From assembly GCF_019931675.1 (NCBI RefSeq), contig NZ_CP082922.1, forward strand, positions 2,681,001-2,745,000: a DNA stretch of 64,000 nucleotides, written 5' to 3'. A program made the translations under genes and the position numbers. Shown piece by piece: positions 22,927-60,073 of the stretch. The notes under the pieces were generated by a model. The model ran no database searches and was not told the DNA's origin. It saw nothing but the letters and a program-made list of their open reading frames with translations. Positions within the stretch are counted from its first letter, which is position 1; every line of letters starts with the position of its first letter. This DNA is from Nocardioides rotundus. Its GTDB lineage: Bacteria > Actinomycetota > Actinomycetes > Propionibacteriales > Nocardioidaceae.

Positions 22927-23862
22927 ATGACCCAGACCGACCTGCCCCTGTCCGGCCGGGTGGCCCTCGTCGCCGGCGCCACCCGCGGCTGCGGCCGCGC
23001 GATCGCGGTGGAGCTGGCGCGGGCCGGGGCGTTCGTCTACGCCACCGGCCGGAGCAGCCGGTCCGCGCCTTCGGAGATGGGCCGCCCGGAGACGATCGAG
23101 GACACCGGCGACCTGGTCGACGCGGTCGGCTCGGGTACGGCGCTGGTGGTGGACCACGAGTCCTCGGAGCAGGTGGCCGCGCTGATGAGGCGGATCGAGG
23201 CCGAGCACGGCCGCCTGGACGTGCTCGTCAACGACATGTTCGGTGGCGACCGCTACGCGCAGTTCGACAAGCCGCTGTGGGAGCACGACGTCGAGGGCGG
23301 CTGGCGGATGATGGGGATGGGCGTGCGCACCCACCTGGTCACCGCCCATCACGCGCTGCCGCTGCTGCTGCGCTCGGGGACCGCCGAGGCGCCCTCGCTC
23401 CTGGTGGAGATGACCGACGGGACCTACGAGGCCAACCGGGAGTACCGCCAGGGCGTGGGGCTGTTCTACGACCTGGTGAAGGCCAACGTCGGGCGGATCG
23501 TCGTCGCGCTGACCCACGAGCTGGCCGACCACCCGGTCACGCCGGTGCTGGTCACGCCGGGGTGGATCCGCTCCGAGGCGATGCTGGACGGCTTCGGGGT
23601 CACCGAGGAGCGCTGGCGCGACGCGCTGGAGCGGGTCCCCGGGTTCGCGATCAGCGAGTCCCCGACGTACGTCGCCCGCGGCGTCGCCGCGCTCGCCGCG
23701 GACCGCGGCCACGCGAGCCTCGCCGGGCGTTCGCTGACCTCACGCGACCTCGCGGACTCCTACGGGGTCACCGACGTGGACGGCTCGCGGCCGGACTGCT
23801 GGCGGCTGCTCGCCGAGCACGGCTTCGACAGCGACCACGTGGACGTGACGGCGTACCGCTGA
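22927..23862 (+). CDS. Short-chain dehydrogenase/reductase
   Basis: The 311-residue protein has the SDR Rossmann motif GATRGCGRAIAVELA (about 17-31) and catalytic YDLVK. The usual catalytic serine is not obvious; the strand before it reads LLVEMTDGTYE, with threonine as candidate. Length is about 50 residues above a classical SDR. Cofactor and substrate are unknown; the R following GCG resembles NADP-binding members. It interrupts an otherwise minus-strand block, divergent from the GNAT gene, and its stop codon runs straight into the tandem repeat array. This suggests a later arrival between proS-GNAT and ispG. Confidence 0.85.
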   Translation: MTQTDLPLSGRVALVAGATRGCGRAIAVELARAGAFVYATGRSSRSAPSEMGRPETIEDTGDLVDAVGSGTALVVDHESSEQVAALMRRIEAEHGRLDVLVNDMFGGDRYAQFDKPLWEHDVEGGWRMMGMGVRTHLVTAHHALPLLLRSGTAEAPSLLVEMTDGTYEANREYRQGVGLFYDLVKANVGRIVVALTHELADHPVTPVLVTPGWIRSEAMLDGFGVTEERWRDALERVPGFAISESPTYVARGVAALAADRGHASLAGRSLTSRDLADSYGVTDVDGSRPDCWRLLAEHGFDSDHVDVTAYR

Positions 23863-23989
23863 CCGGGCACTTGATGCACCCACAAACCCCACCACCGGGC
23901 ACTTGATGTACCCACAGACCCCGCGGCCGGGCACTTCATGCACCCACAAACCCCGCGACCGGGCACTTTGTGCCACCTCGCGGCACGCG
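23862..23989. repeat. Tandem array A: 32-base units, four copies
   Basis: Units begin at 23862, 23894, 23926 and 23958, each 32 bases. The first 20 bases are ACCGGGCACTTGATGCACCC or close to it and the rest is ACAAACCCC plus a GC-rich end. Units 1-3 are nearly identical; unit 4 is degenerate after about 12 bases. The first base of unit 1 is the last base of the SDR stop codon. A 32-base period is not a multiple of three, so this is not coding. Whole units are conserved, with no unique spacers. Confidence 0.9.
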
Positions 23990-23999
23990 CTCAGTGCAT

Positions 24000-24149
24000 C
24001 GAATGCCCGGTCGACGCCCGATGGGGACATGTGATGCCCGGTCGGCGCCCGATGGGGACATCGAATGCCCGGTCGACGCCAGATGGGGACATCGAATGCC
24101 CGGTCGACGCCAGATGGGGACATGTGATGCCCGGTCGGCGAGATGGGGA
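24000..24149. repeat. Tandem array B: 31-base units in the opposite orientation, five copies
   Basis: Units begin at 24000, 24031, 24062, 24093 and 24124, each 31 bases except the last, which is shortened to 26. The core is GAATGCCCGGTCGACGCC followed by GATGGGGACAT; units 2 and 5 carry the GTGATGCCC variant and share other changes, so the array may have grown by copying blocks. Its reverse complement starts ACCGGGCATTCGATGTCCCC, matching array A at 17 of the first 21 positions. It ends one base before the ispG stop codon. Confidence 0.9.
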
Positions 24150-24150
24150 G

Positions 24151-25311
24151 TCAGGAGACGGTGACCTGGGGGGCGGCCCCCTCGACCGGCTCGCCCATCT
24201 CGTCGGCGATCCGCATGGCCTCCTCGATCAGCGTCTCGACGATCTGGCTCTCCGGGACCGTCTTGATCACCTCGCCCTTGACGAAGATCTGGCCCTTGCC
24301 GTTGCCGGAGGCGACGCCGAGGTCGGCCTCGCGGGCCTCGCCCGGACCGTTGACGACGCAGCCCATGACCGCGACCCGGAGCGGGACCTCCATCCCCTCC
24401 AGCCCAGCGGTGACCTCGTCGGCCAGCTTGTAGACGTCGACCTGCGCGCGGCCGCAGGACGGGCAGGAGACGATCTCCAGCCGCCGCGGGCGCAGGTTGA
24501 GCGACTCCAGGATCTGCAGCCCGACCTTGACCTCCTCCACCGGGGGCGCGGACAGCGAGACCCGGATGGTGTCGCCGATCCCCTTCGACAGCAGGGAGCC
24601 GAAGGCGACCGAGGACTTGATCGTGCCCTGGAAGGCCGGCCCGGCCTCGGTGACGCCGAGGTGCAGCGGCCAGTCCCCCGCCTCCGCGAGCAGCTCGTAG
24701 GCGCGCACCATCACGACCGGGTCGTTGTGCTTGACCGAGATCTTGAAGTCGTGGAAGTCGTGCTCCTCGAACAGCGAGGCCTCCCACACGGCCGACTCGA
24801 CGAGCGCCTCGGGCGTGGCCTTGCCGTGCTTCTCCATCAGCCGCTTGTCCAGCGACCCGGCGTTGACGCCGATCCGGATCGACGTGCCGTGGTCCTTGGC
24901 CGCCTGGGCGATCTCCTTGACCTGGTCGTCGAACTTCTTGATGTTGCCGGGATTGACACGTACGGCGGCGCAGCCGGCCTCGATCGCGGCGAAGACGTAG
25001 CGCGGCTGGAAGTGGATGTCGGCGATCACCGGGATCTGCGACTTCTGCGCGATCGCCGGGAGCGCCTCGGCGTCGTCGGCGCTGGGGCAGGCGACCCGGA
25101 CGATGTCGCAGCCGGCCGCGGTCAGCTCGGCGATCTGCTGGAGCGTGCTGTTGATGTCGGCGGTGAGCGTGGTCGTCATCGACTGCACCGAGATCGGGTG
25201 GTCCGAGCCGACGCCCACCTTCCCGACCTGGATCTGCCGGGTCTTGCGCCGGGGCGCGAGCGTGGGGGCCGGGAGTGCGGGCATGCCGAGGCCGACGGCA
25301 TCGTTCGTCAT
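24151..25311 (-). CDS. ispG: 4-hydroxy-3-methylbut-2-en-1-yl diphosphate synthase (flavodoxin)
   Basis: IspG (GcpE) performs the sixth step of the methylerythritol phosphate isoprenoid pathway with a [4Fe-4S] cluster. The 386-residue protein has the barrel domain with [20 protein letters not shown] and the cluster ligands in [16 protein letters not shown] and [17 protein letters not shown]. dxr, another gene of the same pathway, lies two genes upstream. The ATG at 25311 has TAGTCT at 25318-25323, 6 bases upstream, and is probably leaderless, so it need not depend on the dxr transcript. Confidence 0.96.
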
Positions 25312-30239: not shown

Positions 30240-31490
30240 GTGGACGAGCGCCTGATCGAGAGCCTGAGTGCCGCGGTCGCGGCCTCACCGGAGGACCTGC
30301 CGTTGCGGCTCCACCTGGCCGAGCTGCTGGTCGGCGCGGGCCGGGGCGCCGAGGCCATCCCGCACGCCGCCACGGTGCTGGCCCGGGAGCCGGACAACGA
30401 GAACGCCCGGGACCTGATGGCCCGCGCGATGACCTCCCACGCCGAGTCGGCGCCAGTTGACGGTGAGTCGGCGTCAATTGACGACGACTCGGCGTCAACA
30501 AGCGCCGACTCGGGGGTGTTCGACTGGGGAGCGGCGGAGTCCGAGCTGGGCGGGTCGGTGCCGCCGATGTTCGTGGACGGCGACACCGACGGCGGGGGCG
30601 CGCCCCCTCCCCCGGCGTACGACGCCGAGCGGGCCGGGGTGCGGCTGGCCGACGTCGGCGGGCTGAAGGACGTCAAGAAGCGCCTGGAGGCGAGCTTCCT
30701 CGCGCCCCTGCGCAACCCCGAGCTGCGGCGGCTCTACGGCAAATCCCTGCGCGGCGGCCTGCTGCTCTACGGCCCGCCGGGGTGCGGCAAGACCTTCCTG
30801 GCCAAGGCGGTCGCGGGCGAGCTGGGCGCGTCGTTCATCCACGTGTCGCTGGCCGACATCCTGGACATGTACATCGGCCAGAGCGAGCGCAACGTGCACG
30901 AGCTCTTCGAGACCGCGCGCAGCTCGGCCCCGTGTGTGCTGTTCCTCGACGAGCTCGACGCGATCGGCCAGAAGCGGTCGCTGAGCCGCAACTCCGGCAC
31001 CCGCACCACGGTCAACCAGCTGCTCACCGAGCTCGACGGCGTCGGGTCGGAGAACGAGGGCGTCTACGTGCTGGCCGCCACCAACCACCCGTGGGACGTC
31101 GACCCCGCGCTGCGCCGCCCCGGCCGGCTGGACCGGATGCTGCTCGTCCTCCCGCCGGACACCGAGGCGCGCGAGGCGATCCTGCGCACCCACCTGCGCG
31201 ACCGCCCGGTCGAGCGGATCGACACCCGCAAGCTGGCCAAGGCCACCGACGGCTTCTCCGGCGCGGACCTGGCCCACCTGGCCGAGTCCGCCTCGGAGAA
31301 CGCGCTGATGGACTCCGTCGGCACCGGCCGGGCCCGGATGATCACCATGGCCGACTTCGACGCAGCCCTCGCCGAGGTCCGCCCCTCGATCGGCCCGTGG
31401 ATGGAGACCGCGCGCAACGTGGCGCTCTACGCCAACGCGAGCGGGGAGTACGACGACCTCGCGAAGTGGCTGCGCAAGAGCCGCCGCTGA
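30240..31490 (+). CDS. AAA ATPase with N-terminal TPR-like region (Cdc48/FtsH-like)
   Basis: The 416-residue protein has TPR-like helices (about 1-62), an Asp/Ser-rich linker (about 65-125) built of in-frame 21-base repeats, and one AAA domain (about 135-400). Walker A GPPGCGKT is at 178-185, the Walker B segment CVLFLDELDAIG near 231-242, and sensor and arginine-finger residues in LAATNHPWDVDPALRRPGRLDR. The GQSERNVHELFETAR element is of Cdc48/FtsH type. No membrane span or protease domain is present, so it is an unfoldase or remodelling ATPase rather than FtsH. The partner is probably the TPR membrane protein upstream; the substrate is unknown. Confidence 0.85.
   Translation: MDERLIESLSAAVAASPEDLPLRLHLAELLVGAGRGAEAIPHAATVLAREPDNENARDLMARAMTSHAESAPVDGESASIDDDSASTSADSGVFDWGAAESELGGSVPPMFVDGDTDGGGAPPPPAYDAERAGVRLADVGGLKDVKKRLEASFLAPLRNPELRRLYGKSLRGGLLLYGPPGCGKTFLAKAVAGELGASFIHVSLADILDMYIGQSERNVHELFETARSSAPCVLFLDELDAIGQKRSLSRNSGTRTTVNQLLTELDGVGSENEGVYVLAATNHPWDVDPALRRPGRLDRMLLVLPPDTEAREAILRTHLRDRPVERIDTRKLAKATDGFSGADLAHLAESASENALMDSVGTGRARMITMADFDAALAEVRPSIGPWMETARNVALYANASGEYDDLAKWLRKSRR
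30444..30513 (+). repeat. In-frame 21-base tandem repeat in the AAA ATPase linker
   Basis: Units at 30444-30464, 30465-30485 and 30486-30506, plus a partial unit, start GAGTCGGCGCCAGTTGACG, GAGTCGGCGTCAATTGACG and GACTCGGCGTCAACAAGCG. They encode ESAPVDG, ESASIDD and DSASTSA, so the reading frame is kept. GTCAATTGAC in unit 2 is a perfect palindrome. Confidence 0.75.
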
Positions 31491-59314: not shown

Positions 59315-60073
59315 TCAGTCCGAAATCGGTCCGGGCGGGAGCAGGTCCGGGCGGCGCTCGCGAGTACGGCGTACCCGCTGGTCGTGGCGCCATGCGGCGA
59401 TCCGCCCGTGGTCGCCGGACAGCAGGATCTCCGGCACGTCCAGCCCCCGCCAGGAGGCGGGCTTGGTGTAGACGGGGTACTCCAGCAGACCGTCCTCGTG
59501 CGACTCCTCGTCCAGGGACGCGGCGTTGCCCATGAACCCCGGCAGCAGGCGCACCACGGCCTCGATGATCGCCAGCGCGGCCACCTCGCCGCCGTTGAGG
59601 ACGAAGTCGCCGAGGGAGACCTCCAGCACCTCCACGCGGTCGGCGAAGTGGTCCATCACCCGCTGGTCGATGCCCTCGTAGCGGCCGCAGGCGAAGACCA
59701 GGTGCTCGCGGGTGGACAGGTCCCGCGCCAGCGCCTGGGTCAGCGGGACCCCGCTCGGGGTCGGCACGATCAGGGTCGAGCCCCCCTCATCGCTGGTCGA
59801 GCGCCCTTCATCGCTGGTCGAGCGCCCCTCATCGCTGGTCGAGCCTGTCGAGACCACCTCGTCCAGCGCCTCCCCCCACGGCTCGGGCTTCATCACCATG
59901 CCGGCGCCGCCGCCGTACGGCGTGTCGTCGACCGTCCGGTGCCGGTCGCGGGTCCAGTCCCGCAGGTCGTGCACGTGCAGGTCGAGCAGCCCCGAGGCGC
60001 GCGCCCTCCCGGGCAGCGAGAGGTCGAGGGGCGCGAGGTAGTCCGGGAAGATGGAGACGACGTCGATCCGCAC
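59315..60073 (-). CDS. trmD: tRNA (guanine-37-N1)-methyltransferase with in-frame repeat insertion
   Basis: TrmD methylates G37 next to the anticodon and prevents frameshifting. The 252-residue protein has the trefoil-knot SPOUT core, with [30 protein letters not shown] and [15 protein letters not shown]. Between about residues 78 and 98, STSDEGR is repeated three times, encoded by a 21-base tandem repeat. This loop joins two core segments and is variable in the family. GTG 60073 has the weak hexamer GAGGCT 7 bases upstream. rimM and rpsP, usual upstream neighbours, are absent. Confidence 0.93.
59786..59855. repeat. In-frame 21-base repeat and dispersed-type palindrome inside trmD
   Basis: CTCATCGCTGGTCGAGCG plus CCC (59786-59806) recurs at 59807-59827 with one change and again from 59828. 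The third copy runs into GGTCGAGCCTGTCGAGACC (59837-59855), an imperfect palindrome. Its reverse form, GGTCTCGACAGGCTCGACC, resembles a short repeat that is common between genes in Nocardioides-type genomes. The 21-base length keeps the trmD frame. Confidence 0.8.

Follow-up and report, generated by a model that had tools for sequence, protein, structure and literature searches.

In Nocardioides rotundus, the gap between ispG and a convergent SDR-like gene is filled by two short tandem repeat arrays that face each other, which raises the question of what these arrays are and with what they are associated. They lie in a stretch of 64,000 nucleotides (referred to here as the window: assembly GCF_019931675.1, contig NZ_CP082922.1, positions 2,681,001 to 2,745,000 of the forward strand). 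This double array is a 'solo' copy, one ordinary member of a repeat family that is dispersed through the genome. Units of the same type also bracket a gene whose product combines an AbiEi-like half with a nuclease-like half, and this partnership of gene and arrays is well supported. Each species has its own unit, and solo arrays match the type of their own genome.

The double array and its family in the N. rotundus genome

The layout of the double array is the same whether it is read from the raw sequence, from Tandem Repeats Finder (extents 23856-23968 for the 32-bp array and 23997-24149 for the 31-bp array) or from a unit weight matrix (Table 1). Units of array A start at 23862, 23894, 23926 and 23958; those of array B, on the opposite strand, occupy 24105-24135, 24074-24104, 24043-24073, 24012-24042 and 23981-24011. 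A preliminary description of this DNA had reported four 32-bp units facing five 31-bp units, a core shared by the two arrays at 17 of 21 positions, and an array A that opens with the final base of the SDR stop codon, all of which is confirmed. Its placing of the far end one base before the ispG stop holds for the repeat traced by Tandem Repeats Finder, but the last array B unit scored by the matrix stops 15 bases short. The innermost unit of both arrays is degenerate: the fourth unit of array A scores 16.1 bits, versus 34-39 bits, and the degenerate unit of array B (23981-24011) sits at the centre. Units 24012 and 24105 of array B both have the ATCACATG change, in keeping with the shared changes described earlier.

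A chance origin of the unit is ruled out by the exact core pattern, which has 17+18 matches in the genome and 0+0 for the reversed control, and by its presence at 18 places. With two mismatches allowed, the counts are 52+62 versus 7+10. Weight-matrix scoring of 20 fetched stretches gave 119 units at the 18 places; both orientations occur at 10 of these, facing inward in all 10, and a single orientation at the other eight. Twenty-two of 28 array ends sit behind a gene that points into the array, 20 of them at -13 to 17 bp from the stop codon and two at 155 and 1548 bp. As read from the gene-call table, convergent genes border 11 of the 18 places; by comparison, the 144 background gaps of these stretches comprise 16 convergent, 102 co-directional and 26 divergent ones. 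Among the remainder, L039, L042, L046 and L056 are co-directional, L050 is divergent, L044 is irregular and L054 is without a called left neighbour; these genes come from a codon-bias caller and not from curated annotation, and the left neighbour at L043 looks wrong. At L044:5491-6012 (1023990-1024511 of the genome), a short gene of 173 amino acids lies between facing arrays.

At the ispG locus itself, no array of period 18-46 adjoins the gene in any of the 29 best-matching relatives, and own-type units are absent there in all 29; one faint period call (L136) lies about 1.4 kb away. A GNAT gene directly follows ispG in 17 of these relatives (it is further off in three and outside the stretch in nine). 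Compared with those 17, the SDR-like gene and the arrays therefore form an insertion, in the lineage of N. rotundus, that separates ispG from the GNAT gene.

A gene bracketed by the same units

The exact N. rotundus core seemed confined to the species, as it was matched in three of 147 genomes of the genus, two of them with one match each; a two-unit scan and a looser pattern then revealed a wider family. In a matrix scan of 44 stretches, facing arrays were found only in L106 (Nocardioides zhouii), just after both stop codons, and L076 had one lone match. The two-unit pattern, run over 215 congeners, matched in 38: N. rotundus has 76 matches, G178 79, G174 46, G173 39, G045 28, G095 17, G019 14, G160 13 and G141 10, and every other genome at most three. 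Reversed controls gave 0 in most genomes and at most 4 (G095); some single matches, plus three in G141, are not arrays. Across 40 stretches from eight genomes, all 34 two-sided places face inward, six places are one-sided and none faces outward.

Some arrays face each other across about 1.1 kb, and five such inserts (L049, L181, L183, L202 and L209) encode one protein family. Other inserts differ (L173, L044, L207 and L043). SRPBCC and ArsR-like genes lie between the arrays in G173 (L173:3410-4469) and no gene lies between them at the same place in G086 (L208:4414-4715); array centres may thus gain or lose genes. A short gene of about 118 amino acids lies between facing arrays at L207:4600-4960.

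The gene common to the five inserts sits between convergent pgl and rbpA, in N. rotundus too, and is bracketed by own-type units facing inward. A search with one member (P0003, 328 amino acids, from L202) matched 177 of the 215 congeners at E ≤ 1e-30. The top 19 matches, at least 59% identical with E of 2.2e-130 or lower, include all 11 other array-carrying genomes (the eight with more than three two-unit matches, together with G086, G073 and G070), and facing arrays surround the gene at each of the 19 loci; around more distant orthologs the facing arrays are of other sequence.

rbpA is present in 210 of the 215 congeners, and 90 pgl-rbpA gaps (30 loci from the rbpA search and 60 fetched; L240 is N. 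rotundus and L254 is G086) entered a two-by-two test. The gene occupies 26 of them and 64 are empty, 13 of the latter being stretches without a pgl match. Arrays were called in 22 of the 26 occupied gaps, and facing repeats are visible by eye in the remaining four; the empty gaps yielded a single weak call (L304), where inspection by eye showed no facing arrays, and shuffled gaps gave none in 450. Where the gene is present together with pgl (25 gaps), the gap spans 1149-1447 bp, and 28 of the 50 empty gaps with a pgl match measure 162 bp or less. At the pgl-rbpA ends, the core starts a median of one base after the stop codon (52 ends, 41 of them within -6 to 10).

The N-terminal half of the partner protein matches AbiEi (6y8q) in both fold and profile, and the other half has a Vsr-like fold of the Vsr/EDxHD homing endonuclease kind with conserved E, D, E/x, H and D; these nuclease residues are conserved in the family. 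Direct sequence searches gave less: Pfam found no family in P0003 and four weak families, all under their cut-offs, in P0004, and a PDB sequence search with the query A1 had no matches. Of the 46 relatives in the alignment, 12 matched AbiEi_4 and one MTES_1575. The family is common, with 605 members at E ≤ 1e-10 out of 7995 candidates scored; those named among the matches listed are called hypothetical or AbiEi-like only.

Across 53 elements (a count that omits the partial proteins L232 and L237 as well as L049 and L254, which duplicate L240 and L227), the unit consists of a constant half, GCYGASYSGGCRC, followed by a variable half, and scored units lie on both sides of the gene in 51. The mean distance between elements is 0.32 for the constant half and 0.61 for the variable half. 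Unit distance rises with protein distance (Mantel r of 0.54 for the constant and 0.33 for the variable half; p of 0.002 for each, 500 permutations). Solo arrays differ by 0.29 within genomes versus 0.39 between them (permutation p of 0.0005), and in eight of 11 same-place comparisons an array resembles other places in its own genome more than it does its ortholog. Unit length is about 20-44 bp in some species, compared with 31-32 bp in N. rotundus. In G022, which belongs to the other of the two protein clades, the genome's own unit occurs 27+31 times (control 0+0); no such copies were found for G012, whose unit is a different one. In G022, facing own-type units about 1.2 kb apart (G022:C1:1327675-1329082) likely mark a further gene-bearing copy of that other clade.

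G173 and G174, which are 98.9% identical over 8.9 kb, have 14 array places that correspond by spacing (orthology was judged in this way except for one aligned pair). Copy number differs between them, for example 5 versus 8 plus-strand matches at one place, which fits the growth by duplication proposed in the preliminary description. Several array places are also common to species at about 85% identity: the places are old, and their spelling changes together.

The protein extends beyond the genus, with matches at E ≤ 1e-40 in 87 of 293 genomes of the order and in eight of 37 genera. A period scan of 15 non-own loci from this search found repeats beside the gene in 12, nine of which have them on both sides (L397, L401 and L404 had no period call), and inverted 10-mers are common to both sides in 14. 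At least six of these loci (L394, L396, L399, L400, L403 and L405) lie at other flanking genes. N. rotundus has a second AbiEi-Vsr-like paralog (L046:8857-9810), flanked by a second array type, CGAGTCGGCGC..GTT, with a period of about 21 bp. This type occurs at L046:8689-9897, L046:6949-7006, L056:8111-8168 and once in the window, inside a reading frame (Table 1). A close relative of the ATPase concerned (93% by BLASTP, 96% by alignment) is without 16 residues at the array copy, so this copy has changed length recently. The window also holds, at 59774-59845, a 21-bp tandem repeat of 3.4 copies with 92% matches, GGTCGAGCCCCCCTCATCGCT.

Table 1. Arrays and neighbouring genes in the window
Feature	Position	Strand	Description	Basis
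Array A	23862..23989	+	four 32-bp units	sequence, Tandem Repeats Finder, weight matrix
Array B	23981..24149	-	five 31-bp units and a trailing partial copy to 24149	sequence, Tandem Repeats Finder, weight matrix
SDR-like gene	22927..23862	+	stop codon 23860-23862 opens array A	own codon-bias gene call
ispG (gcpE)	24151..25311	-	convergent neighbour, stop codon 24151-24153	
Second-type solo facing copy	30440..30517	.	about 21-bp units, CGAGTCGGCGCCAGTTGACG; in frame, in the linker of an AAA+ ATPase gene (30240-31490, +)	

What the arrays may do

The preliminary description had offered each unit as a possible protein-binding site. This idea gains indirect support: the same units flank the AbiEi/Vsr-like gene, and unit and protein differ together between species. 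We see about an even chance that the units serve the cognate nuclease as recognition sites and that this nuclease homogenises and slowly spreads them, in the manner of repetitive extragenic palindromic (REP) sequences and their REP-associated tyrosine transposases (RAYTs), with an unrelated enzyme. The partner protein would recognise the units and nick or break the arrays, and repair from other arrays would homogenise the units, alter copy number and now and then seed new sites. Copies might persist best between convergent genes, flush with stop codons, where disturbance is least, and there they may also contribute to terminating transcription that arrives from either side.

Several points weigh against a nuclease that homogenises and spreads its own sites. 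We know of no transposase-like integration step for the Vsr-type nuclease fold. The correlation between protein and unit distances is uncorrected for shared descent, and in three of the 11 same-locus comparisons the ortholog is as close or closer (one of these is G173/G174, nearly one species). All 14 array places, matched by spacing, are common to G173 and G174, so spread is slow at best. Finally, six of the 28 array ends in N. rotundus do not follow an inward-pointing gene.

A two-way transcription block by a bound protein is possible, if rather doubtful: the AbiEi/Vsr-like protein, or another, would act for the host as an orientation-dependent roadblock that ends convergent transcription, with no part for cutting. 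The position of array ends close behind inward-pointing genes, and the share of convergent places relative to background gaps, both argue for such a block. So do the pgl-rbpA gaps, where cores that start a median of one base after the stop leave no room for another terminator. However, some facing pairs separate co-directional genes (L039, L056) or divergent ones (L050), or fall within a reading frame; the nuclease residues are conserved, and most pgl-rbpA gaps are without arrays. That both hold at once, with a selfish nuclease-array element whose solo arrays were co-opted as terminators, would combine the evidence for each, and we regard this combination as unlikely.

An RNA-level element, in which a long hairpin ends or protects the transcripts, is very improbable. 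The preliminary description had proposed a two-way terminator or RNA barrier folding across the centre, and the whole 289-nucleotide array transcript does fold well (z of -5.4), because facing copies must pair; the units of several other species, moreover, contain a short inverted repeat. Folded singly, however, array A, array B and a G174 array do no better than shuffled sequences (z of -0.03, 0.61 and 0.27). An intrinsic terminator, as a G+C-rich hairpin followed by a U run, was rejected, with no U-tract terminator found between 23600 and 24400; no promoter-like site was found in the same interval, and Rfam had no match at E ≤ 1 between 23500 and 24500. The barrier idea also fails to account for facing pairs that are 0.6-1.1 kb apart or outside convergent-gene gaps, or for one-sided arrays.

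We find it scarcely credible that the arrays are iteron-like and tied to, or derived from, an origin or partition system. A TCCACAG box, which we take to resemble the DnaA box (TTATCCACA/TTGTCCACA), lies upstream of the partner gene in 52 of 53 elements (for example L049 and L202) and downstream in none, versus 0.021 expected per shuffled sequence. Its distance from the start codon is nearly fixed, and its strand differs between the two protein clades. However, the box accompanies the partner gene and was not noted in the window array, the arrays are chromosomal, and the box may simply be part of a promoter. The folds that the protein matches are those of AbiEi and Vsr, and the matches listed include no initiator; searches of phage records gave no match and those of plasmids six weak matches only. 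Neutral local tandem duplication without function would explain the variable copy number and the likeness of neighbouring units, but we give it almost no weight for a unit that recurs at 18 places, faces its opposite copies wherever both orientations are present, and is tied to one gene.

Comparison with known systems

Clustered regularly interspaced short palindromic repeat (CRISPR) arrays share a period of about 31 bp. Here there are no unique spacers, whole units repeat and abut at 31-32 bp from start to start, and copies face each other, so that a CRISPR array is rejected, as it already had been in the preliminary description.

The two halves of the partner protein each have known counterparts. 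AbiEi antitoxins of the AbiE type IV toxin-antitoxin systems, which bind inverted repeats (PMC7319586, PMC3985639), correspond to the N-terminal half; here that half is fused to a nuclease-like domain, and the arrays are dispersed and species-specific. No AbiEii toxin was seen between the arrays, where inserts hold one gene of this family; neighbouring genes were not searched with an AbiEii profile. The other half matches the fold of I-Bth0305I, of the EDxHD/Vsr-like homing endonuclease family (named in PMC6083498). Unlike that enzyme, the partner protein has an AbiEi-like N-terminal half and is encoded between arrays in an intergenic gap, with no intron or intein.

CGTC-tagged REPs are likewise short dispersed intergenic repeats, often dimers, near gene ends and without a RAYT, and are described as having no dedicated transposase (PMC3733652). 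In contrast, a specific gene is flanked by the repeat here; a CGTC tag or hairpin with tail was not seen, no search for one having been made.

The closest likeness in working is to REPs, or bacterial interspersed mosaic elements (BIMEs), with a RAYT (TnpA-REP). In the 'REPtrons' of these systems, a single gene lies between inverted copies of a repeat of which further copies are scattered between genes (PMC3733652, PMC2817692, PMC8266576). We found this arrangement at L049 with the N. rotundus solo arrays, at the G174, G178, G019 and G095 loci, and in G022. REPs, too, often lie between convergent genes close to stop codons, and most conv-REPs in two species are 20 bp or less from both ORF ends (PMC3733652); the text of that paper contains neither 'actinobacteria' nor 'nocardioides'. 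The enzyme, however, differs: the Y1/HUH tyrosine transposase (PF01797) was found in none of 28 genomes (12 with arrays or array-type matches and 16 others), and the same search was positive in five of 14 control genomes. The repeat differs as well, being a bipartite tandem array with species-specific spelling, where REPs are single GTAG-tagged palindromes of 20-40 nucleotides. The N. rotundus unit is weakly palindromic and those of other species more so, and no GTAG tag was noticed, without a systematic scan.

These results hint that soil bacteria contain an undescribed partnership in which a protein that cuts DNA is paired with repeated target sites of its own. Among the papers listed by searches of a single open-access library, none described an AbiEi-Vsr/array system, and the enzyme and unit design matched none of the partner systems found there. 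With somewhat less than even confidence, we propose that Actinobacteria carry a new class of nuclease element, bounded by arrays: an AbiEi-Vsr fusion endonuclease that recognises a bipartite unit (one half fixed, one fast-changing), one 'dialect' per genome maintained by break-driven gene conversion, solo arrays seeded at convergent gene ends, and two unmixed systems in one genome. The dozens of orthologs, each found beside its own arrays, lend themselves to tabulating protein sequence against DNA specificity, and such a class would make testable both the concerted change of dispersed bacterial repeats and the ending of convergent transcription at bound arrays. If correct, it would represent a second, independent bacterial invention of a repeat with a cognate enzyme, as in REP/RAYT, built on a Vsr-type nuclease.
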